Shown here: one piece after another, positions 29,557 to 40,502 of the stretch
Numbering within the stretch: position 1 is the stretch's first letter
Layout of the letters: each line of letters starts with the position of its first letter
NCBI RefSeq assembly: GCF_024584435.1
Contig: NZ_CP102197.1
Location: 310,001 to 374,000, forward strand
Length of the DNA stretch: 64,000 bases
Source: Schaalia odontolytica
GTDB taxonomy: Bacteria; Actinomycetota; Actinomycetes; Actinomycetales; Actinomycetaceae
Direction of reading: 5' to 3'
Made by a program: the position numbers and the translations under genes
The notes under the pieces: model-generated
Seen by the model: the letters and a program-made list of their open reading frames with translations, nothing else
Told to the model about the DNA's origin: nothing
Database searches by the model: none

Positions 29557-30726
29557 TTGACAACGCCACTATCCGTGCTGCTCTACAGCCACGACTCCCA
29601 AGGGTTGGGGCACGTGAGGAGGAACCTGGCGCTCGCCCACCACATCGCCGCGGGCGTCGGCGCGGGAGGGCTGCGCGGACTCGTTGTCTCGGGCCTTGCT
29701 CCCTCGCCCCTGTTCACCCTGCCCAACGGCTTCGACTGGCTGGTGCTGCCGGGAGTCGAGAAACGAGACGGAGTCTACGTTCCCCGTAGGCTCCCCGGCA
29801 CCCTGTCCGAGACCGTTGCGCTGCGCTCCTTGATCCTCGGCGCCGCGCTCGCCGGCTTCGCTCCCGACCTGGTCATCGTCGACCGACACCCGCTGGGGAT
29901 TCGCCGCGAGCTCGAGGCGCCGCTTCGGGCGCTGCGCCGCTCCCACCCGGGAGCCCGCGTCGTCCTGGGACTGCGCGACGTCCTCGACGACCCCGCCGTC
30001 GCCGCCCGTGAGTGGGAAGGGCTGGGCGGCGCCGACACCCTGGTGCCCCTGGTCGACCAGGTGTGGGTCTACGGCGACCCGCGCGTCCACGACGCCACGA
30101 GCAGCGGCGAGATCCCTCCGGCCCTGGCCTCGCGCGCCCTCTTCACCGGCTACCTGGCCGCGGGACGCACCGACGTGGACCCATACCCCGGGCGGCTCTC
30201 CCGCCCCTACGTGCTCACCACGGCCGGCGGAGGCTCCGACGGAGGACCCCTCGTCGAGTCGGCAGCCAGCGCACGGGTGCCCGCCGGCCACGATCACATC
30301 GTCGTGGCCGGCCCCCAGCTGGCCGAGGATCGCTTCGCCCGCGCCCAGGCCCTCGCTGGGCCCTCGACCACCGTGGTGCGATCCTGCCCCGGCCTGGCCC
30401 ACCGGATCCGCGAGGCCGCCGCCGTGGTCGCCATGGGCGGCTACAACACCGTGTGCGAGATCCTCGCTACCTCCACCCCCGCCCTCATCGTCCCGCGGGA
30501 GAAACCGCGCCTCGAACAGGCCATCCGAGCCCGCGCGCTCTCCCGTGCCAGCGCCGTTGACACCGCCCGCCAAGAGACCGCCACCCCGGACCTGCTCTCC
30601 CGCTGGCTCGCCGGTGCCGTCTCCACCCGAACCGACCGATCCCACGTTGAGCTCGGCGGCCTGGCCGCCGCAGCCCGAGCCGCAGCCCGTCTGCTCACCC
30701 GCACCCCCGAAGGAGAACTCACATGA
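29557..30726 (+). CDS. MurG-like predicted glycosyltransferase (COG4671 type)
   Basis: A 389-residue GT-B fold protein. The N-terminus (VLLYSHDSQGLGHVRRNLALA) and the nucleotide-sugar-binding C-terminal region (VVAMGGYNTVCEILATSTPALIVPREKPRLEQAIRA) match the predicted glycosyltransferases grouped with MurG/GT28. The TTG start at 29557 was chosen because GGAAGGGGG precedes it. It opens a block of seven genes and overlaps the next by 4 bp. Acceptor and sugar are unknown. Confidence 0.82.
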   Translation: MTTPLSVLLYSHDSQGLGHVRRNLALAHHIAAGVGAGGLRGLVVSGLAPSPLFTLPNGFDWLVLPGVEKRDGVYVPRRLPGTLSETVALRSLILGAALAGFAPDLVIVDRHPLGIRRELEAPLRALRRSHPGARVVLGLRDVLDDPAVAAREWEGLGGADTLVPLVDQVWVYGDPRVHDATSSGEIPPALASRALFTGYLAAGRTDVDPYPGRLSRPYVLTTAGGGSDGGPLVESAASARVPAGHDHIVVAGPQLAEDRFARAQALAGPSTTVVRSCPGLAHRIREAAAVVAMGGYNTVCEILATSTPALIVPREKPRLEQAIRARALSRASAVDTARQETATPDLLSRWLAGAVSTRTDRSHVELGGLAAAARAAARLLTRTPEGELT

Positions 30727-31928
30727 CCCGCATCGGCTACGTCCTCAAGGTCTACCCCCGCTTTTCCGAAACCTTCGTCGTGACCGAGATCCTTGCCCGC
30801 GAAGACCTCGGCCAGGACCTGTCCATCTACGCGCTGCGGCCCACGACCGACACGCGCTTCCACCCCGAGATCGCGCGCGTCGAGGCCCCCGTCAGGTGGG
30901 TGCCCCGCCCCCGCAAGGCCGCCGAGCTGTGGGAGACCCTCACCGAGGGCCTCACCGACGAGGACATGCGTCGCCGCTTCGTTGATCTCATGCCCCACAT
31001 AGCATCCCTGAGCGCCGATGACGTCGCTCAGGGAGTCGCCCTCGCGCGAGCGGCCCGCGAGGACGGCATCACCCATCTGCACGCCCACTTCGCGTCCCTG
31101 GCCGGGCGGACCGCGTGGATCGCCTCGTCCCTGACGGACATCCCCTACACGGTCACGACCCACGCCAAGGACATCCACCACGACTCCGTCGATATGAACC
31201 TGCTGCGCAAGGTGTGCGCGGGCGCCGCCCAGGTGATCGCGATCTCGAGCTACAACCAGGACTACCTCAACCGGGTGCTCGAGGGCACGGGGGCGCGCAT
31301 CATCCTGCAGCGCAACGCCCTGGAGCTGGCGCGCTTCGCCTACCGAGACCCCAAGCCCTCCTACGGGCCGCTGCGCATTCTCGCGGTCGGACGCCTCGTC
31401 GAAAAGAAGGGCTTCGCCCACCTCATCGACGCCCTCGCCCTGGCCCGAGATGCCGGGATCAACTTCGACGCCCAGATCATCGGCGAGGGGGACCTCGCGG
31501 GCGAGCTCGCCCAACGCATCGAGGACAGGGACCTGTCGGATTCGTGCCGCCTGCTCGGGGCGCGCACACAGAACGAGGTCCGCTCCCTCCTCGAAAACTC
31601 CGACGTTTTCGTCGCACCCTGCGTGCCCGGCGCCGACGGCAACATCGACGGGCTCCCCACCGTCATCCTTGAATCCATGGCCGTGGGCACTCCCGTGATC
31701 GCCACCTTCGTCAGCGGCATCCCCGAGGTCGTCATCAACGGGCGCACCGGCGTCCTCGTTCCCCCGGCCTCCGCGAGCGCCCTCGCGCAGGCTCTGGGAG
31801 ACATCGCGTCGGGTCGCGTCCCCGCCCGGGATCTGGCCCGAGGTGCGCGAGCCCTCATCGAGGAGACCTACGACTCCCACGTCCAGGCCGCCCGCCTGGC
31901 GAGCCTCGAAGACGAGGAGGAGCGCTGA
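30723..31928 (+). CDS. GT4-family glycosyltransferase
   Basis: A 401-residue GT-B glycosyltransferase of family 4. YVLKVYPRFSETFVVTEI is the usual opening of this subgroup. HLHAHFASLAGRTAWIAS lies in the acceptor domain, and ILAVGRLVEKKGFAHLIDAL and the E-x7-E motif (VILESMAVGTPVIATFVSGIPEVV) bind the nucleotide sugar. It overlaps its upstream neighbour by 4 bp and the next gene by 1 bp (TGATG). Confidence 0.88.
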   Translation: MTRIGYVLKVYPRFSETFVVTEILAREDLGQDLSIYALRPTTDTRFHPEIARVEAPVRWVPRPRKAAELWETLTEGLTDEDMRRRFVDLMPHIASLSADDVAQGVALARAAREDGITHLHAHFASLAGRTAWIASSLTDIPYTVTTHAKDIHHDSVDMNLLRKVCAGAAQVIAISSYNQDYLNRVLEGTGARIILQRNALELARFAYRDPKPSYGPLRILAVGRLVEKKGFAHLIDALALARDAGINFDAQIIGEGDLAGELAQRIEDRDLSDSCRLLGARTQNEVRSLLENSDVFVAPCVPGADGNIDGLPTVILESMAVGTPVIATFVSGIPEVVINGRTGVLVPPASASALAQALGDIASGRVPARDLARGARALIEETYDSHVQAARLASLEDEEER

Positions 31929-33049
31929 TGCGAATCGCCTACGTGTGCGCCGACCCCGGCATCCCCGTCTACGGCACCAAGGGGGCCTCCGTCCACATCC
32001 AAGACGTCGCGGGCGAACTCGTGCGGCGCGGGCACGAGGTCGAGATCCACGCCGTGCGCCTGGGCGAGCACCCGAGCGCCGACCTGGCGAGCGTGCCCAC
32101 GTGGACCTACCCGCTGCCCGTCCACTGCTCCGACCGCGAACGCGCGCAAGGCATGGCGGCGAGCGCCATTGCCGAGCACCTCGAAACGGACACCCCCGAC
32201 CTTGTGTGGGAGCGCTACTCACTGTTCTCCACCGTGCTCGCCCGCCTCGCCGACACCCGGTCGGTCCGAGGAATCCTCGAGGTCAACGCACCCCTCATCG
32301 ACGAGCAGCGAGAGCACCGTAGGCTTGACGACGAGCAGGGTGCCCTGGCGAACCTGAGGGAGCAGGTGCGCGCGGCAGCCGCCACGATCTGCGTGTCCGA
32401 ACCCGTGCGCGCCTGGGTCGAGGAGCGCACCGGCACCCGGCGTGCCCACACGATCCCCAACGGCGTGGACACCACCAGGATCACGCCGGTGGGCGAGGAG
32501 GACGGCCGCGTCGTCGTCACCTTCGTGGGAACCCTCAAGCCCTGGCACGGCGTCGAACACCTCATTGAGGCGCGCCGACTGGCTGCGGCCCCCTGGAGCC
32601 TGCGCATCATCGGCGACGGCCCCCAGCTTCCCCACCTGGAGGAGAGCGCGAGGCGCGCGGGCATCGAGGCGGACTTCCACGGTTCCGTCCCGCCCCTCGA
32701 CATGCCCGCCCACCTGGAGGGAACGGCCATCGCGGTCGCCCCCTACCCGATGCCCGAACGCGCCGCAGACCACTACTTCTCGCCCCTGAAGGTCTACGAG
32801 TACATGGCCGCCGGCCTTCCCGTTGTCGCCAGCTCGCTTGGGCAGATACCCGACGCGCTCGACGGCTGCGGCGTCCTCGTGCCGCCGTCCGACCCCGCCG
32901 CCCTCGCGCGTGCGATCGACTCCCTCGCCCAGGACCCGGCTCGGCGAGCCGAGCTGGGGGAGCGGGCGCGACGCCTCGCCGTCGACCGCCACTCCTGGAG
33001 CGGGGTCGTCACGCGGGCGCTCGACCTGTTGGGGGTGCGCCATGCCTAA
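31928..33049 (+). CDS. GT4-family glycosyltransferase
   Basis: A 373-residue GT4 enzyme. It has YVCADPGIPVYGTKGASVHIQDVAGELVRRGH at the N-terminus (Gly-rich acceptor loop), VTFVGTLKPWHGVEHLIEA and a modified E-x7-E region (PLKVYEYMAAGLPVVASSLGQIPDAL). It resembles transferases that build cell-surface glycans. Its last 8 bp overlap the ABC exporter gene. Confidence 0.87.
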   Translation: MRIAYVCADPGIPVYGTKGASVHIQDVAGELVRRGHEVEIHAVRLGEHPSADLASVPTWTYPLPVHCSDRERAQGMAASAIAEHLETDTPDLVWERYSLFSTVLARLADTRSVRGILEVNAPLIDEQREHRRLDDEQGALANLREQVRAAAATICVSEPVRAWVEERTGTRRAHTIPNGVDTTRITPVGEEDGRVVVTFVGTLKPWHGVEHLIEARRLAAAPWSLRIIGDGPQLPHLEESARRAGIEADFHGSVPPLDMPAHLEGTAIAVAPYPMPERAADHYFSPLKVYEYMAAGLPVVASSLGQIPDALDGCGVLVPPSDPAALARAIDSLAQDPARRAELGERARRLAVDRHSWSGVVTRALDLLGVRHA

Positions 33050-34844
33050 GATCGTCCGGGGTAAGCGCCTGAGCCCGCTGGCACGCACCCTGTCCCTCGT
33101 TGGGCCGGACGTGCGCCCCAACCGAGGCCTCGCCGTGGGCGGCATCGTCGCTCTCCTCATGGACGTCGTGTTCCGCGTCATGGAGCCCTGGCCCATGAAG
33201 ATCGTCGTCGACTCGGTGTTCGAGGCCGCCCTGCCCAAAACGGACGACGCGTGGGCGGCCGCGCCCATGATCGTGGCCTGCGCGCTCCTGCTCGTTCTCA
33301 TCGTGGGACTGCGCGCGGCCAGCAACTACCTGGCCACCGTGTGCTTCGCGCTCGTCGGCTCCCGGACCGCCCAGTCCCTGCGCGCCCGCGTGTTCCGCCA
33401 CGTGCAGGGCCTGTCCCTGCAGTTCCACGCGCGCAACCGCAGCGCGGACACGGTGCAACGCATCGTCGGAGACGTCAATCGCCTGCAGGAGGTGGCCATC
33501 ACCGCCGGGCTGCCGCTGTTGGCCAACACGGCGACCCTGGCGGTCATGCTCATCGTCATGATCGTCCTGGACCCCTTGCTCGCGCTCATCGTCGTCGCGG
33601 CCATCGCGCTGTTTCTTCTCCTCTCGCGAGGCTCCTCCCAGCGCATCACCGTGGCCGCCAGGAGCACCCGCAAGGGCGAGGGCCAGCTGGCCAACACCGC
33701 GCAGGAATCCCTGGCCTCGATGCCCGTCGTCCAGGCCTATGGCCTTGAGGACTACATCGCGAAGCGCTTCGGGGGAGCCAACGGGCGGGCCGTGCGCCAG
33801 GGTGTGAAATCCCTGCGGCTGGCGGCCAGGCTCGAACGCTCCACGGACCTCCTGGTCGGCATCGCGTCGGCCATCGTCCTCGTCGGAGGCGGCCTGCGGG
33901 TCCTCGACGGCGCGATGGGTGTGGGTGACCTCGTCCTGTTCACCTCCTACCTGCGCACCGCCATGAAGCCCCTGCGTGACATGGCCAAGTACACGGGCCG
34001 TATCTCTCGGGCCGGGGCCTCCGGTGAGCGCGTCGCCGACCTCATGGAGGTCCGCCAGGACATCGCGACGCACCCGGACGCTCTCAGCCCCGCCCGCATC
34101 GGTGGGTCGCTCGAGTTCGACCGCGTCGTCACCGAATACGACGGCGTGGAGGTCCTCCACGACGTGTCCCTCAGCGTCGCCCCGGGGGAGAGGGTGGCGA
34201 TCATCGGCCCCTCCGGCTCCGGAAAGTCCACCTTGGCGTCCCTGGTGGTGCGCGCTCAGGATCCCGTGCGCGGCCGGGTCATCATGGGCGGCTACCCGAT
34301 CAAGGAGCTCTCCCTTGCCGCGCTGCGATCCAACGTGACCCTGCTGCACCAGGAGGCCGTCCTCTTCGCCACCACGATCCGCGAGAACATCGCCCTGGGG
34401 CGCGAGGGCGCCTCGTATGAGGAGATCGTGGCGGCGGCCAAGGCCGCCAACGCGCACGCCTTCATCATGGAGATGCCCGGCGGTTACGACGCGCAGGTGG
34501 GCGAGCGGGGAGGAACTCTCTCCGGCGGCCAACGCCAACGCATCGCCATCGCCCGAGCGCTGCTGCGCAACACGCCTGTCATCATCCTCGACGAGGCCAC
34601 CACCGGCCTGGACCCCGAATCCGCCGGCCTCGTCCTGGACGCCATCGACGGCCTCGTGAGCGGGCGCACCGCCCTGGCCGTCACCCACGACCCCCAGGTT
34701 GCCCTGCGCTGCACGCGCGTCGTGTGGATCGAGGAGGGACGGATCCTCCTGGACGGAAGCCCCGCGCGTCTGCTCGCACAGTCCGATCTCTTTCGAGCCT
34801 GGATGGCAAGCGCCGCGGCGAACACCAGCGGAGCGGGGGCATGA
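33042..34844 (+). CDS. ABC exporter (fused membrane and ATPase domains)
   Basis: A 600-residue half-exporter. About six helices in residues 25-300 form the type-1 exporter fold. The C-terminal ATPase has Walker A GPSGSGKST, signature LSGGQRQR, Walker B VIILDEATTGLD and switch histidine VTHDPQ. A homodimer would be needed for export. Position directly behind three glycosyltransferases suggests it flips the glycan or lipid-linked product across the membrane. Confidence 0.88.
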   Translation: MPKIVRGKRLSPLARTLSLVGPDVRPNRGLAVGGIVALLMDVVFRVMEPWPMKIVVDSVFEAALPKTDDAWAAAPMIVACALLLVLIVGLRAASNYLATVCFALVGSRTAQSLRARVFRHVQGLSLQFHARNRSADTVQRIVGDVNRLQEVAITAGLPLLANTATLAVMLIVMIVLDPLLALIVVAAIALFLLLSRGSSQRITVAARSTRKGEGQLANTAQESLASMPVVQAYGLEDYIAKRFGGANGRAVRQGVKSLRLAARLERSTDLLVGIASAIVLVGGGLRVLDGAMGVGDLVLFTSYLRTAMKPLRDMAKYTGRISRAGASGERVADLMEVRQDIATHPDALSPARIGGSLEFDRVVTEYDGVEVLHDVSLSVAPGERVAIIGPSGSGKSTLASLVVRAQDPVRGRVIMGGYPIKELSLAALRSNVTLLHQEAVLFATTIRENIALGREGASYEEIVAAAKAANAHAFIMEMPGGYDAQVGERGGTLSGGQRQRIAIARALLRNTPVIILDEATTGLDPESAGLVLDAIDGLVSGRTALAVTHDPQVALRCTRVVWIEEGRILLDGSPARLLAQSDLFRAWMASAAANTSGAGA

Positions 34845-35977
34845 TGAACGAGTCCATGTCCCTGGCAATCTCCACCCTCCTCAACCCGGAGCGCCTCAGC
34901 GGCGCCCTGGGCGAGGCCAGAGCGGCCAGCCGGGTGCGCATCAAGCCCGGTGTTTCCGTCAGCGCATCGCTCGTTGACGCCGACGGGGTCCCCGCGGGTT
35001 GGGCGCGCATCCTGTGGCCCGCCGCGAGCCCGAAGGCGGACAAGACCGCCAGGAAGGCGCGCAGCCTCGGCCTGCCCACCCGGATCCGCCCCCTGCCGTT
35101 CGACCTGCGCATCCAATGGGGCGGCGTCGAATCCGACCCCGCGCTCATGACCCACATCGCGCGCGCCGCCGCCGCGGGGAGCGTCGACCCGGCGACCTGG
35201 AGTATTCTGCGCCACAACCCCCTGCGTCGAATTGTCGCCCGGAGCGGCGGAACCATCGTGCGGATCCGGACCCACTCCAGGCGGGTCGACACCGCCCTCG
35301 GCCGCTACCTGCAGGAGGCCATCCCCGTCCCCGAGCGGCTTGACGACGCCGCAGACCCCCACGTGTGCGTCCTGTCCGACGCGGGAGGCTGTGACCTGTC
35401 CACCCCGCGCGGGAGCGCCGAGCAGGTGCTCAGCTGGAACGAGGAAGCCGGTGGCCTCTTCGCCCGCCTCCATGCCAGCGCGCCACCCCTCCACGTGCGG
35501 GCGGCGCTGGCCGCGCCCGCGCCCTCCACTCCCGACACGCTGCGCGTCCACGCCGCCATTATCGGCGTGCTTGATGCGGACCTGGGGGCACGCATCGAGG
35601 CTCTCGCACGCGTTGCCCCCGAAGCGCCCGGCGGGGCCTGCGCGATCATCCACGCCGACGCCTCACCGGATCAGGTGCTCGTCAGCGGGTCGGGTCGCCT
35701 GCTCCTGGCCGACTTCGACCGCGCCCGAATGGGGAACGCAGCCTTGGACGTCGCCTCCTACACGGCCGCCACCGGCCCCGATGCCGCCTCCGCCTTCCTG
35801 CGCGGCTACGAACAGGCCGGTGGGTGCATTCCCGACGAGGTGACCATGGCGGCGGCGCTTCTACACGCCCGCGCCCTGTCGCTGGCAGACCCCCTGCGCG
35901 AGGCGCGCCCCGACTGGGCGCTGCGGGTCGGACAATCTCTGGACCTCATGGAGGAGAACACCCATGGCACTCATTGA
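34841..35977 (+). CDS. APH-fold phosphotransferase (kinase 1 of the glycan block)
   Basis: A 378-residue protein whose C-terminal half carries the aminoglycoside/choline-kinase catalytic loop in altered form (IIHADASPDQVLVSG) and the metal-binding LLADFDRARMGN. The N-terminal part is divergent, with WSILRHNPLRRIVARSGGTIVRI as the probable ATP-binding lobe. It likely phosphorylates a small molecule or sugar. It overlaps the exporter by 4 bp and the second kinase by 14 bp. Confidence 0.75.
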   Translation: MMNESMSLAISTLLNPERLSGALGEARAASRVRIKPGVSVSASLVDADGVPAGWARILWPAASPKADKTARKARSLGLPTRIRPLPFDLRIQWGGVESDPALMTHIARAAAAGSVDPATWSILRHNPLRRIVARSGGTIVRIRTHSRRVDTALGRYLQEAIPVPERLDDAADPHVCVLSDAGGCDLSTPRGSAEQVLSWNEEAGGLFARLHASAPPLHVRAALAAPAPSTPDTLRVHAAIIGVLDADLGARIEALARVAPEAPGGACAIIHADASPDQVLVSGSGRLLLADFDRARMGNAALDVASYTAATGPDAASAFLRGYEQAGGCIPDEVTMAAALLHARALSLADPLREARPDWALRVGQSLDLMEENTHGTH

Positions 35978-36944
35978 TAATGTCGTGACGATCCCCGGTC
36001 TTCGGCGAGCCTGGCCCGCAGACGAGGCCATCAGCGTGGAGATCGTCGACGAACGCGGACGGATACGAGCGGGACGCGTCGACCAGTCGGGACTGGTCCT
36101 CTCCCTCTACGCCTGCGACCCGGTGCTGGGCACAATCCCCGTGGGGGAAGGATCCCTGGTCGTCCACCGCCTCGCACGCCGCGCCGTCGTGGTTGGCGAG
36201 GACCGGGTGACCAAGCACGTGCGCAAGGGCGGCGAACGCATCGCCCGCGCAACCGTGACCGCCGGGCGCGCCTACCGATCCTGGGGGCTTGAGACGGCCT
36301 CGATCACGTCCTGGACGCCCACCTCCGTCACCTTCACGAGTCTGCCCGGACGCTGCCTCGCCGACATCGGAGACGCGGGCCTGCCCGGGTGGCGCCTGCT
36401 CGCCGACTCCTGGCGCCCCGTCAGCGAGGCTGACCTCGCCCGGCACAGCGGAGCCCACGAAGCCAGGAATCTCGCCCGCTGGGCGCAGCACGCGCGACGA
36501 TTCGACACCGTCCAGGACGGCCCTCGCCTCGCCGAGGCAGTCCTGGAGACCTCCCGGCGCCTCGTGGAACCCGCCGACGCGGCCCCCGTCGTCTCCCACA
36601 CCGACCTCCACGACGGTCAACTCCTGTGGGATGGCACGACCCTCGGGGTCATTGACCTTGACGGAGCCCGCCTCGCCGAGGCGGCCCTGGACCTGACGAA
36701 CCTGCGGGCGCACGCCGAACTGGCGCGCCTGCGCGGTTCCCTGAGCGCCCGAGGCCTCGACTCCATCGTCGGGTGGCTCGACGACGCCGCCCGACGCATG
36801 CCGACCTCGCAAGGGCGCCTGAACGCCTACCTGGACGCCGCGCGCCTGCGCCTCATCTTCGTCCACTCGTTCCGGCCCGGATCGCGCGCCTGGCTGGATG
36901 ACTGGAGAGATCACGCGCTCGGTGGCCTCGCGAACACCCCCTAG
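35964..36944 (+). CDS. APH-fold phosphotransferase (kinase 2 of the glycan block)
   Basis: A 326-residue kinase-like protein with catalytic loop VSHTDLHDGQLLWDG and metal-binding GVIDLDGARLAEAALDL. KHVRKGGERIARATVTAGRAYRSWGL resembles the nucleotide-binding lobe with its Lys. It shows little sequence in common with kinase 1 outside the catalytic motifs, so the two probably act on different substrates. The ATG lies 14 bp inside the previous gene. Confidence 0.77.
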   Translation: MALIDNVVTIPGLRRAWPADEAISVEIVDERGRIRAGRVDQSGLVLSLYACDPVLGTIPVGEGSLVVHRLARRAVVVGEDRVTKHVRKGGERIARATVTAGRAYRSWGLETASITSWTPTSVTFTSLPGRCLADIGDAGLPGWRLLADSWRPVSEADLARHSGAHEARNLARWAQHARRFDTVQDGPRLAEAVLETSRRLVEPADAAPVVSHTDLHDGQLLWDGTTLGVIDLDGARLAEAALDLTNLRAHAELARLRGSLSARGLDSIVGWLDDAARRMPTSQGRLNAYLDAARLRLIFVHSFRPGSRAWLDDWRDHALGGLANTP

Positions 36945-36988
36945 CGCACCCCACCCCTAGCACACCCCATACGAGAAAGAGCACTCCC

Positions 36989-38308
36989 ATGAAAATGACA
37001 GTTATCGGTTGCGGATACCTCGGCGCCGTCCACGCCGCCTGCATGGCGTCCCTGGGCCACGACGTCGTCGGCATCGACATTGACCGCGATAAGGTGCGGG
37101 CGCTGGCAGCGGGCCGCTCTCCCTTCCACGAGCCGGGCCTGGAGGACATCCTCGATGAGGGTATCGCCGCCGGAAACCTGCGCTTCACCGCCGACCCGAG
37201 TGCCGCCGACGTGCGCGGGCGGAGCCTCCACTTCATCACGGTGGGCACGCCCCAGGCCACCGACGCGGGAGCCGCTGACCTGAGCCACCTCATGTCCGCC
37301 GTCTCGATGCTCGCCGAGGCGCTCGACCCGGCCGAGCGCGCCGTCGTCGTGGGTAAGTCAACGGTCCCGGTGGGTACCGCTGCGCGCGTGGAGCGGGAGC
37401 TGGCCGCAGCCGGAGCCTACGTCGCGTGGAACCCCGAGTTCCTGCGCGAGGGCTACGCCGTGGAGGACACGCTTCGCCCCTCCCGCCTCGTCTACGGTCT
37501 CTCAGATAACCCCGAGGCCGCCACGCGCGGGCGCGAGGCACTCGACGAGGCCTACCGGCCCCTGCTGGAGGCGGGCACCCCCGTCATCGCCTCCGATTTC
37601 GCCACGGCCGAGCTGGTCAAGGTCGCCGCCAACTCCTTCCTGGCCACCAAGATCAGTTTCATCAACGCGATGGCGGAGATCTGCGACGCTACCGGAGCCG
37701 ACGTCACGATGCTCGCCCATGCCCTCGGCCACGACGAACGCATCGGCAGGCGCGCCCTGGGAGCCGGCATCGGATTTGGCGGAGGCTGTCTGCCCAAGGA
37801 CATTCGCGCATTCGTGGCGCGCGCCGAGGAACTGGGGCGGGGAGAATCCGTGGCCTTCCTCAAGGAAGTGGACGCCATCAACCTGCGTGGGCGAAGCCGG
37901 GCAGTCGCGGCCGCTGAGGCCGCCCTGGGGGGCAGCGTCAGGGGCGCCAACATCGCCGTCCTGGGTGCCTCCTTCAAGCCCGACACCGACGACGTGCGTG
38001 ATTCCCCGGCCCTGGATGTGGCCTCGCGTCTGCACGAGCGCGGAGCACGCGTGCGCGTCACCGACCCGATCGCGCTGTCCAACGCGGCTGCCGACAAGCC
38101 CCACCTGACCATGGTGGAGGACCTGGACTCTGCCCTGCGCGACGCCGACCTGGTGTTCCTGGCGACGGAGTGGCCGCAGTTCGTCGGCCTGGATCCCAAG
38201 GAGATCGCGCCCCTTGTGCGCACCCGCACCGTGGTCGACGGGCGAAACGTGTTGGATCGCGACAAGTGGAGCGAGGCCGGGTGGACGCACGTCGGGATCG
38301 GACGGTGA
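36989..38308 (+). CDS. ugd: UDP-glucose 6-dehydrogenase
   Basis: A 439-residue nucleotide-sugar dehydrogenase oxidising UDP-glucose to UDP-glucuronate with NAD. The Rossmann motif VIGCGYLGAVHAACMASLGHDVVGID opens it. The middle has WNPEFLREGYAVEDTLRPSRLVYG, and the catalytic Cys is in GIGFGGGCLPKD; the C-terminal UDP-binding domain has LGASFKPDTDDVRDSPALDV. UDP-GlcA made here could feed the glycosyltransferases upstream. GDP-mannose dehydrogenase is a less likely alternative. Confidence 0.9.
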   Translation: MKMTVIGCGYLGAVHAACMASLGHDVVGIDIDRDKVRALAAGRSPFHEPGLEDILDEGIAAGNLRFTADPSAADVRGRSLHFITVGTPQATDAGAADLSHLMSAVSMLAEALDPAERAVVVGKSTVPVGTAARVERELAAAGAYVAWNPEFLREGYAVEDTLRPSRLVYGLSDNPEAATRGREALDEAYRPLLEAGTPVIASDFATAELVKVAANSFLATKISFINAMAEICDATGADVTMLAHALGHDERIGRRALGAGIGFGGGCLPKDIRAFVARAEELGRGESVAFLKEVDAINLRGRSRAVAAAEAALGGSVRGANIAVLGASFKPDTDDVRDSPALDVASRLHERGARVRVTDPIALSNAAADKPHLTMVEDLDSALRDADLVFLATEWPQFVGLDPKEIAPLVRTRTVVDGRNVLDRDKWSEAGWTHVGIGR

Positions 38309-38403
38309 GCGATGCGCTCCGCGGGGCGCGCCCCTCGTGGAGACCTCGCGAGGAGCCGCCCCGCCGGGGTGCGCGCCAGAGCGGTACGGGTCACAATGAG
38401 GCC

Positions 38404-39846
38404 ATGAGCGCCCAACCCGCACCTCCCCGGGTGTCCGTCAGCATTCGCACCAGGATCATTGCCGCGATGATCCTGGTCGCGGGCGCGGCACTCACCGTCT
38501 CCGGGATCCTTGTCTCCATCCTGCAACAGCGCGCCCTGGATGCGCGGGCGGTGGACAACCTGCGTCGGTCCAAGGCGGCTCTCGAGCATCTGATCGCCGA
38601 GGGAACAGACCCCGACACGGGAGGGCCTCTCACCGACCCCTCCGAGATCGTGCGCACGCACCTGTCTCGCACCTTCTGGGGCTCAAGCGCCGGGGAGGTC
38701 GGCTTCGTGGATGGGAGCCTCTACTGGCTTCCCTCCCAGGAGCCTCGTCTGCACCCAGAAGAGGACCTCGAGCTCATGGCCCACGTGGCGCCCTTGACCA
38801 CGGGCACGGACACCGTCTACGAGACCTTCACGAGCGCGCAGACCACCTATCGTCTCGTCGTTATTCCCGTCAGGGGCCAGACCTCGACGGCGGCGCTCGT
38901 GCACGTCATCGACATGAATCGCTACTCGCAGTCCTTCCACTCCACGATGCTGCTGTACGCGGTCTCGGCCGTCGGCACGGTCGCGCTGGTGGTTCCCCTC
39001 GCCTGGTTCGCCGTCACGAGGCTCCTGCGCCCCATCGGCGAGCTTCGCCGAGCCACCGACTCCATCGGTGAGGCCGACCTGGCGACCCGCGTGCCCGTTC
39101 GCGGCAGGGACGACCTGTCGGCCTTGGCGGCGGCGGTCAACAGGATGCTGGATCGAGTCGAGCGGGCGGTGGTGGCGCGGCGCGAGCTCCTCGACGATGT
39201 CAGCCACGAGCTGCGCACTCCGATCACGGTGGTGCGCGGCCACATGGAGCTCCTGGACCCGTCCGATCACGCCGACGTCGTTGACACGCGCGCCCTGGTG
39301 ATTGACGAACTCGACCGGATGGGCATCCTCGTCAAAGACCTGCTGGAGCTTGCCCGCGCCTCCGACGCCGTCGCCCCCACGCCCGTCGATCTGGCGGCGC
39401 TCACCGACGCCGTCGTGGACAAGGCCAGCGCACTCGGCGATCGCGACTGGGTCCTTGACGCCTCGGCGCACGCCAGCTGCAGCCTCGATTCGGCCCGCAT
39501 CACGCAGGCGTGGCTGCAGCTGGCGCAAAACGCCGTCCAGTACTCGGCGAAGGGCACTGAGGTGGGAATCGGGTCGCGTGTCGAAGGGGACGTCGCGCGC
39601 ATGTGGGTGCGCGACCGGGGGGAGGGCATCGCCCCGCAGGACATTGAGCGGGTCCGCGGCCGTTTCGTGCGCGGGGTGGGCGCCGAGCGCGTGTCCGGAT
39701 CGGGCCTTGGCTTGAGCATCGTCGAGTCCATTGCGCGCGCCCACGGCGGGCGCCTTGACATCGAATCGACGCTGGGGGAGGGATCGACCTTTACCCTGGT
39801 GATACCAGTGCGCCCGGGCGGCGCGGACTCAGGAGTCACACCATGA
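38404..39846 (+). CDS. sensor histidine kinase
   Basis: A 480-residue membrane kinase. One helix (about 18-40), an extracytoplasmic sensor (about 40-175), a second helix (about 180-205), HAMP, the HisKA phosphoacceptor (LLDDVSHELRTPITVVRGHMELL) and the ATPase boxes (AQNAVQYS, DRGEGIAP, SGSGLGLSIVESIARAHGG) are all present. The ATG at 38404 is the sensible start; the frame is open further upstream. It overlaps the response regulator in ATGA and follows ugd by 95 bp, so it may respond to envelope state. Confidence 0.9.
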   Translation: MSAQPAPPRVSVSIRTRIIAAMILVAGAALTVSGILVSILQQRALDARAVDNLRRSKAALEHLIAEGTDPDTGGPLTDPSEIVRTHLSRTFWGSSAGEVGFVDGSLYWLPSQEPRLHPEEDLELMAHVAPLTTGTDTVYETFTSAQTTYRLVVIPVRGQTSTAALVHVIDMNRYSQSFHSTMLLYAVSAVGTVALVVPLAWFAVTRLLRPIGELRRATDSIGEADLATRVPVRGRDDLSALAAAVNRMLDRVERAVVARRELLDDVSHELRTPITVVRGHMELLDPSDHADVVDTRALVIDELDRMGILVKDLLELARASDAVAPTPVDLAALTDAVVDKASALGDRDWVLDASAHASCSLDSARITQAWLQLAQNAVQYSAKGTEVGIGSRVEGDVARMWVRDRGEGIAPQDIERVRGRFVRGVGAERVSGSGLGLSIVESIARAHGGRLDIESTLGEGSTFTLVIPVRPGGADSGVTP

Positions 39847-40502
39847 CGACCATTCTTATCGTCGAAGACGAGCGCAGGATTGCCTCCTTCGTCGCCAAGG
39901 GGCTTCGCGCCGCTGGCTTCGTTCCGGAGGTGTATTCGACGGGGGCGGAGGCCGTCGAGGCGGCCCTTCAGGGGCGCGGCGCCCTCATGCTGTTAGATGT
40001 CGGCCTGCCCGACATTGACGGCTTCGAGGTCCTCGAACAGATCAGGGGACAGGGGGTGGAGATGCCGGTCATCATGCTCACGGCGCGCACCTCGGTGTCC
40101 GACCGCGTCGCGGGCCTGGAGGGTGGGGCGGACGACTACGTGCCCAAGCCTTTCTCCTTCGAGGAACTCCTTGCCCGAGTGCGCCTGCGTCTTCGGGAGG
40201 AAGCGCCGGTTCCGGGGGGACTGACCCTGACGAGGGGGTCCCTCGTCCTTGACCTGAAGAGCCGACGGGTTCGCGTGGGGGAACGATCGGTGGATCTGTC
40301 GGCCCGGGAGTTTACCCTCCTGGAGACGTTCATGCGCAATCCCGGGCAGGTTCTCAGCCGCGAGCAGCTGCTGTCGGCGGTGTGGGGGATCGACTTCGAT
40401 GGCGGATCCAACGTGGTGGATGTCTACCTGTCCTATCTGCGTCAGAAGATAGGAAAGGATCGTTTCGAGACCGTGCGAGGCATGGGGTACCGTCTCGTGT
40501 GA
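39843..40502 (+). CDS. OmpR-family response regulator
   Basis: A 219-residue regulator. The receiver domain (about 1-120) has the phosphoacceptor Asp in LLDVGLPDIDGFE and Lys in DDYVPKPFSFEELLARV. The winged-helix DNA-binding domain ends RQKIGKDRFETVRGMGYRLV. It works with the kinase encoded directly before it. Targets are unknown; the palindrome at 40999-41016 in front of the nearby secreted-protein gene is a candidate. Confidence 0.93.
   Translation: MTTILIVEDERRIASFVAKGLRAAGFVPEVYSTGAEAVEAALQGRGALMLLDVGLPDIDGFEVLEQIRGQGVEMPVIMLTARTSVSDRVAGLEGGADDYVPKPFSFEELLARVRLRLREEAPVPGGLTLTRGSLVLDLKSRRVRVGERSVDLSAREFTLLETFMRNPGQVLSREQLLSAVWGIDFDGGSNVVDVYLSYLRQKIGKDRFETVRGMGYRLV

Follow-up and report, generated by a model that had tools for sequence, protein, structure and literature searches.

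The ATP-binding cassette (ABC)-dependent O-antigen pathway of Escherichia coli O9a exports via Wzm/Wzt. Here, we analyse a six-gene cassette of Schaalia odontolytica that encodes three glycosyltransferases (GTs)—a GT28-like protein, which we take to be COG4671, and two GT4-family enzymes, GT4a and GT4b—followed by an MsbA-type ABC exporter and two kinases of the aminoglycoside phosphotransferase (APH) fold, APH1 and APH2. The cassette lies within a 64,000-nucleotide stretch of DNA (the window; positions 310001-374000 of NZ_CP102197.1, G+C content 65.8%) from a genome consisting of one 2.39-Mb contig. We consider it reasonably probable (roughly 0.6) that the cassette constitutes a pathway for a secreted, soluble, anionic and probably uronic-acid-containing exoglycan, modified by the kinases and exported by the ABC protein.

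According to an account of the O9a kinase WbdD (PMC3482155), this enzyme phosphorylates the end of the glycan chain and, together with methylation, stops chain growth in the ABC-transporter-dependent pathway. Like the cassette as we read it, Wzm/Wzt plus WbdD would combine GTs in the cytoplasm with export by an ABC transporter and a kinase that acts on the glycan, and we use WbdD as a working analogy for the cassette kinases, not as a claim of homology. The two systems differ in that the cassette exporter is a single half-size MsbA-type protein rather than Wzm/Wzt, that its two APH-fold kinases lack a methyltransferase domain (in the Pfam scan, APH1 and APH2 of the window carry PF01636 only), and that the cassette occurs in monoderms. 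With alginate secretion through AlgE, diderm versions of the cassette have in common a PF13372 porin, as well as a nearby nucleotide-sugar dehydrogenase in E. coli and, in most Nitrospirota clusters, heparinase II/III-like proteins, whereas the window has an ABC exporter and, for GTs, GT28-like and GT4 enzymes in place of a processive GT2 (Alg8-type) synthase. Teichuronic acid synthesis in Bacillus subtilis (tua) likewise involves UDP-glucuronic acid (UDP-GlcA) from a TuaD-type dehydrogenase, and the cassette's GT4 enzymes show low-score similarity to TuaC and TuaH. However, the window proteins reach only 92 of the 550 bits required for TuaC, 345.7 of 700 for TuaD and 39 of 550 for TuaH, and where tua relies on a Wzx/Wzy-type flippase and polymerase, the cassette encodes an ABC exporter and APH kinases. 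MsbA, PglK and HepA resemble the cassette exporter in uniting transmembrane and nucleotide-binding domains on one chain, but again the scores fall below the cut-offs (MsbA_lipidA, 352.5 versus 602 bits; HepA, 316 versus 725; PglK, 130 versus 1000). Finally, the actinobacterial SjGlcNK and Mak kinases share the HxDxxxxQ loop, the DxD motif and an N-terminal extra part with the cassette kinases; unlike them, most APH1 sequences have D-x-S rather than D-x-H, and the context given in PMC6520443 is a sugar isomerase and a GT, as opposed to the GTs and exporter of the cassette.

We class the cassette as a form of ABC-dependent glycan export that has so far gone uncharacterised, in the broad sense that GTs and an ABC exporter are encoded, and inherited, as one unit. 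A preliminary description of this stretch had put the system forward as a candidate undescribed one; the open-licence text of PubMed Central yielded no description of the cluster or its relatives, and no papers on COG4671.

The six genes form a conserved unit

To survey relatives, we scanned one genome per species with an alignment of the GT28-like protein. This returned at least 559 confirmed relatives, the best 80 of which were fetched with their flanks and searched for open reading frames (ORFs) by a six-frame scan. These named loci, being the best 80, are biased towards close relatives, and random phylum samples were used as a correction. They include Actinomyces, Rothia, Arthrobacter, Kocuria, Brevibacterium, Microbacterium, Corynebacterium and Streptomyces, along with two Planctomycetes bins, one Chloroflexia bin and one Nitrospirota bin. 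GT4a adjoined the GT28-like gene in all 80. Nine loci with less than 5 kb of sequence after COG4671 were left out, and 68 of the 71 evaluable ones carried the GT28-like, GT4a, GT4b, ABC, APH and APH genes in this order; L116 lacked APH genes, and L068 and L107 deviated in their kinases. Closer to the window, the GT28-like and ABC proteins had matches in the same nine of 38 relatives (7/24 of the genus and 2/14 other members of the order), and APH1 matched these nine plus, weakly, two more order members. Each of the six further cassette-positive genomes in the genus showed the neighbouring genes in an unchanged order.

The random samples gave a similar picture. In Actinomycetota, 18 of 396 genomes were positive; all ten testable loci had the six genes, eight in the canonical order and two with one APH ahead of ABC. 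The remaining eight positives were on short contigs, and two of them deviated (COG4671 then APH in G078; COG4671-GT4b-APH2-ABC in G344). The coherent glycan and export set with two kinases that the preliminary description had recognised is therefore kept together in relatives (68/71 named loci and 10/10 random ones). The run is not restricted to Actinobacteria, since it also occurs in Planctomycetota, Nitrospirota and plasmids of Paracoccus and E. coli. Among 199 Planctomycetota genomes, 22 were positive and 15 had all six genes: 14 full cassettes came with a porin and one was full at a contig end, while four loci were truncated and one was without APH or porin (a second COG4671 place in G640, L188, with a scrambled set, was not counted). 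In Nitrospirota, eight of 148 genomes were positive. The window-type six were present in two of these eight clusters, in canonical order in L144 and as APH-APH-ABC in L151; the other six belong to a related cluster type that has additional GTs as well as heparinase-like proteins. The Gram-negative plasmids were found by BLAST search. Among 5426 complete E. coli genomes, close matches to the six-gene block were present in 18, all on plasmids, and on no E. coli chromosome. In one such plasmid (CP057155.1, 12797-22975; L139), the intact block lies near K88-type fimbrial genes.

In the 46 loci with six separate ORFs, pairwise identity matrices correlated for all gene pairs (Spearman 0.70-0.82), with the GT4a-APH2 value of 0.70 to be compared with a maximum of 0.147 over 300 permutations. 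Mean pairwise identity across these loci was 32-35% for the kinases, which diverge faster, and 47-56% for the GTs and exporter. Assuming no stop between domains, single-ORF fusions, spread over several lineages, joined APH1 to APH2 in 15 loci, GT4a to GT4b in six and ABC to APH1 in two, the last of which tie a kinase to the exporter itself; the fused ORF of L075 starts far upstream of its domains. The six genes are hence a conserved unit.

Diderm relatives usually have an adjoining outer-membrane porin

Using a search profile built from alginate-export porins such as that of the E. coli plasmid, we detected a PF13372-type porin ORF that overlapped the last kinase gene or lay within 124 bp of it in all 14 testable full cassettes of Planctomycetota (the fifteenth ends at a contig edge and was not testable). 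All eight Nitrospirota genomes had a porin inside the cluster, which in L172 is positioned 3.5 kb after the ABC gene. On the E. coli plasmid, the series GT28-GT4-GT4-ABC-APH-APH is followed by an ‘alginate export family protein’, and the locus on a Candidatus Manganitrophus plasmid has a porin as well. Three porin representatives exceeded the PF13372 cut-off. No porin was present in any fetched actinobacterial locus, and the whole genome of the window had no PF13372 match. That lineages with an outer membrane usually add a porin argues for a soluble secreted product. In one planctomycete (L163, 4209-6080), a sulfatase/phosphodiesterase-family gene directly follows the porin.

Composition of the cassette proteins

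The preliminary description's six consecutive, overlapping genes with ugd 44 bp further on were borne out by ORFs and Pfam domains: all ORFs of the 29557..38308 region are real at their coordinates (Table 1), and every Pfam assignment for the six core genes and ugd exceeded its gathering score. COG4671 and GT4a overlap by 4 bp, GT4a and GT4b have 1 bp in common, and GT4b/ABC and APH1/APH2 overlap by 8 and 14 bp, respectively. For APH1, the probable start is the ATG at 34841, which would give a 4-bp overlap with ABC; position 34838 does not provide a start codon, as translation from that triplet opens with G.

Table 1 Features of the cassette and its downstream neighbours, in window coordinates.
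Feature	Position	Strand	Domain evidence
COG4671 / GT28-like glycosyltransferase	29557..30726	+	PF04101, 24.7 bits (cut-off 22)
GT4a, GT4-family glycosyltransferase, EpsE/WcaL-like	30723..31928	+	PF00534, 110 bits
GT4b, second GT4-family glycosyltransferase	31928..33049	+	PF13692/PF13439
Half-size type IV (MsbA-like) ABC exporter	33042..34844	+	PF00664 + PF00005
APH1, APH-fold kinase with extra N-terminal subdomain (~residues 1-95)	34841..35977	+	PF01636
APH2, APH-fold kinase with HRDLHDKQ-type catalytic loop and DxD	35964..36944	+	PF01636
ugd, UDP-glucose 6-dehydrogenase family, accessory	36989..38308	+	PF03721/PF00984/PF03720; TIGR03026, 397.8 bits (cut-off 189.8)
Sensor histidine kinase, likely regulator	38398..39846	+	HAMP/HisKA/HATPase
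OmpR-type response regulator	39843..40502	+	PF00072 + PF00486

Among the matches listed, no NCBIfam equivalog scored above cut-off for any core gene. The GT28-like protein combines a MurG-related C-terminal domain with an HDSxGLGHxRR motif (alignment of 19 rows), and its closest solved relative is MurG (1f0k). The EpsE and WcaL models match GT4a below their cut-offs; its solved relatives include BshA (5d00) and PimB (3okc), and those of GT4b include Tll1590 (6kih), an MshA-type enzyme (7qsg) and PimA (4n9w). In the closest relative (G006; L017, 5229-6427), the GT4a sequence seems to be divided between two frames that overlap, owing either to a frameshift or to an error of assembly.

The exporter is not divided into a Wzm/KpsM-type permease and a Wzt/KpsT-type ATPase, as both of its domains reside on one chain. 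Residues of the Walker A, Q-loop, signature, Walker B and H-loop elements were invariant in 20 aligned sequences, and the membrane domain contains an EPWPxK motif. The protein is nearest to the ABCB, Sav1866 and MsbA structures, and the MsbA_rel model scored 357 bits on it against a cut-off of 780.

Structure models and invariant residues indicate that the catalytic residues of APH1 and APH2 are intact. The H-x-D-x4-Q motif is kept in 56/56 and 53/53 tabulated sequences of the two kinases (by motif, the L075 row of the APH1 table is an APH2 domain); in an actinobacterial glucosamine kinase, the Gln of this motif is reported to coordinate Mg (PMC6520443). Structure searches with APH1 and APH2 retrieved the APH/choline-kinase/MTR-kinase fold in general, with numerous ties among the rows and no substrate named, and the matches barely covered ~95 N-terminal residues of APH1 and ~48 of APH2. 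The Foldseek matches of APH2 included 6hwj and 5jy7. LxmKY was the rank 1 structural match of APH1, with a similar fold; an identity as class V lanthipeptide kinase LxmK was rejected, with NF038156 scoring only 24.9 and 18.6 bits against a cut-off of 315.

Accessory neighbours

The ten proteins scanned with Pfam between 27260 and 40502 comprise a beta-glucoside-type phosphotransferase system protein, whose gene lies upstream of the cassette and is divergent, the cassette proteins, the ugd product, the histidine kinase and the response regulator. As the preliminary description had noted, none of the ten is a polymerase, Wzx or priming transferase; a standard Wzx/Wzy capsule locus is thereby dismissed. 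The genome's single PF02397 priming transferase gene lies outside the locus (G000:C1:1276171-1276749). This gene and a second UDP-sugar dehydrogenase gene (1196975-1197520) are ~0.85-0.93 Mb away from the cassette and possibly mark a separate surface-polysaccharide locus.

Unlike the six-gene run, ugd did not stand up as a member of the set in a neighbourhood comparison of the kind proposed in the preliminary description: it was found beside the cassette, on the same strand, in 20/80 named loci, most of which hence lack it, and is better viewed as accessory. Clustering of neighbour ORFs from 87 loci recovered the six core families, then the histidine kinase (43 loci), the response regulator (39) and a dehydrogenase family including ugd (30), with every other flanking family in at most 14. 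Ten minor neighbour families were annotated; they are transporters and housekeeping enzymes, and three had no Pfam match. They include an ABC ATPase with a TOBE domain (14/87 loci), a major facilitator superfamily sugar transporter (8), glutamine synthetase, Dus, dehydroquinase, a short-chain dehydrogenase/reductase and shikimate dehydrogenase; the remaining recurrent families, in 4-9 loci each, were left unannotated. A histidine kinase or response regulator gene, a feature missing from the preliminary description, was located within 1.3 kb of the cassette in 37/80 named loci, and the histidine kinase had an ortholog in 7/7 cassette-positive versus 1/17 cassette-negative genomes of the genus.

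Additional hints at uronates came from diderms. On the E. coli plasmid, a nucleotide-sugar dehydrogenase follows the porin, and heparinase II/III-like proteins are encoded in 6/8 Nitrospirota clusters and on the Candidatus Manganitrophus plasmid (the Pfam match was checked on one Nitrospirota protein and on the plasmid protein). Together with ugd in a quarter of the named loci, these observations make UDP-GlcA a likely donor here, although ugd is not universally linked.

A proposed route for an anionic exoglycan and its alternatives

We propose that the GT28-like protein and the two GT4 enzymes assemble a glycan in the cytoplasm from nucleotide sugars, UDP-GlcA among them, which would account for ugd. 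The APH-fold kinases would then phosphorylate the glycan itself rather than a precursor, with chain ends or the export-competent product as the likeliest targets, and an MsbA-type ABC homodimer would export the phosphorylated glycan. In diderms, the AlgE-family porin would take it outside; in monoderms such as the host of the window, the ABC step would be enough. Phosphate from two kinases would render the product polyanionic, fitting an alginate-type pore. The adjacent two-component system probably controls the cassette, and a polyprenol-linked start is conceivable, via a separate priming transferase encoded elsewhere in the genome. More tentatively, and we would sooner bet against this than for it, the cassette may represent a distinct secretion route of monoderms and diderms, in which GTs build an anionic chain, APH phosphorylation licenses MsbA-type export and diderms add a porin; such a route would differ from the Wzx/Wzy, Wzm/Wzt-Kps, synthase and sucrase routes.

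Several observations weigh against an exoglycan pathway of this kind. The usual cargo of MsbA-type exporters consists of lipids and of oligosaccharides, free or linked to lipids, rather than of long polymers. In the window, the APH1 position of the usual ATP-binding lysine appears, as read by alignment, to be Arg. The kinases are not always required, as locus L116/L152 keeps the GTs and ABC gene without APH and without an adjoining porin, and only one APH is present in each of L068 and L107. Two Planctomycetota positives had COG4671 alone. The absence of an adjoining ugd from most named loci also counts here, as does the heparinase-like protein of L141, which has no obvious signal peptide by eye in its first 80 residues and whose role is uncertain. 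A Planctomycetales locus (L109) has the six genes without an adjoining porin, the one PF13372 match of its genome being on another contig, and a Paracoccus plasmid carries the six genes and no porin. Moreover, the PF13372 family alone does not fix the cargo, given that the four Planctomycetota and Nitrospirota genomes examined have 1-5 matches each (in the L152 genome, two matches away from the cassette).

The main competitor is a flipped glycolipid. The GTs might add sugars to phosphatidylinositol, diacylglycerol or polyprenyl phosphate, with the kinases phosphorylating the lipid headgroup and the ABC protein flipping the glycolipid like MsbA or PglK. The exporter, nearest to MsbA-type models and structures, suits this scenario, as does the resemblance of the GT4 proteins to PimA, PimB and MshA, and the PF02397 priming transferase could act in trans. 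The porin does not fit: an alginate-export porin beside diderm cassettes suits a soluble anionic product, and no lipid-acting enzyme was found among the annotated recurrent neighbour families, several families having been left unannotated. We therefore regard lipid export as unlikely, though it deserves to be kept in view, and the small glycolipid that the preliminary description had entertained as disfavoured. Still less probable is a small, diffusible phosphorylated oligosaccharide, such as a signal or a toxin- or antibiotic-like compound, that is inactivated by the APH enzymes and exported, comparable to self-protection against streptomycin. Aminoglycoside clusters follow the logic of a GT, an APH and a half-size ABC exporter, which the cassette matches, and the APH folds align with aminoglycoside, macrolide and choline kinases. 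Yet its distribution is broad and conserved, the adjoining AlgE-family porin suits a larger anionic glycan, and the ten annotated recurrent neighbours include no cyclitol or aminotransferase family (others were left unannotated); an aminoglycoside-type cluster is accordingly disfavoured. As adjacency alone never proves a pathway, and ugd and the two-component genes come and go, one might lastly suppose that the genes belong to unrelated pathways and owe their order to an accident of local operon structure. This is barely credible in light of the six-gene order across several phyla, the fusions, the correlated divergence and the scarcity of other flanking families besides the two-component pair and ugd. 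Chance adjacency of the six core genes is ruled out by the order kept in 68/71 loci and by the random samples; for ugd and the two-component genes, it may apply in lineages without them.

If the exoglycan proposal holds, the cassette would specify a widespread surface or matrix glycan of Actinomycetota, Planctomycetota, Nitrospirota and proteobacterial plasmids, with carriers that include Actinomyces, Rothia and E. coli plasmids, several of them from cattle. Current annotation splits the set into ‘glycosyltransferase’, ‘ABC transporter’ and ‘aminoglycoside phosphotransferase’. A group of APH-family kinases that can readily be misread as drug-resistance determinants would thereby gain a role open to testing, and one may ask whether phosphorylating the glycan is what licenses its export. 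By the porin rule, cassettes of diderms and of monoderms would be expected to yield products of one class.

Related and divergent gene arrangements

Some relatives of COG4671 occur in other settings. Rhizobial and Ruegeria COG4671-GT4 relatives were not counted as the same cassette, as the annotated stretches have no APH pair and the partners differ: in Phyllobacterium, Sinorhizobium and Rhizobium (L138, L140 and L143), COG4671-GT4 lies by an importer-type ABC, a nucleotide cyclase and a nucleotide-sugar dehydrogenase, and in Ruegeria (L136) it is accompanied by a histidine phosphatase, another GT and a polysaccharide deacetylase. An Azospirillum match was set aside because an annotated GT4 or ABC neighbour was absent, and a Miltoncostaea match has one GT4 and one GT2 only. 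In the planctomycete locus L152 (9584-11140), an NAD-dependent sugar epimerase/dehydratase gene follows ABC in place of the APH genes. A larger sister type of the cassette is present in Nitrospirota (L145-L150 and L172-L175), comprising the GT28-like protein, a double GT4, heparinase II/III-like proteins, several APHs, ABC and an alginate-export porin; a further protein of this type matches the GT28 C-terminal domain and, weakly, DUF2334.

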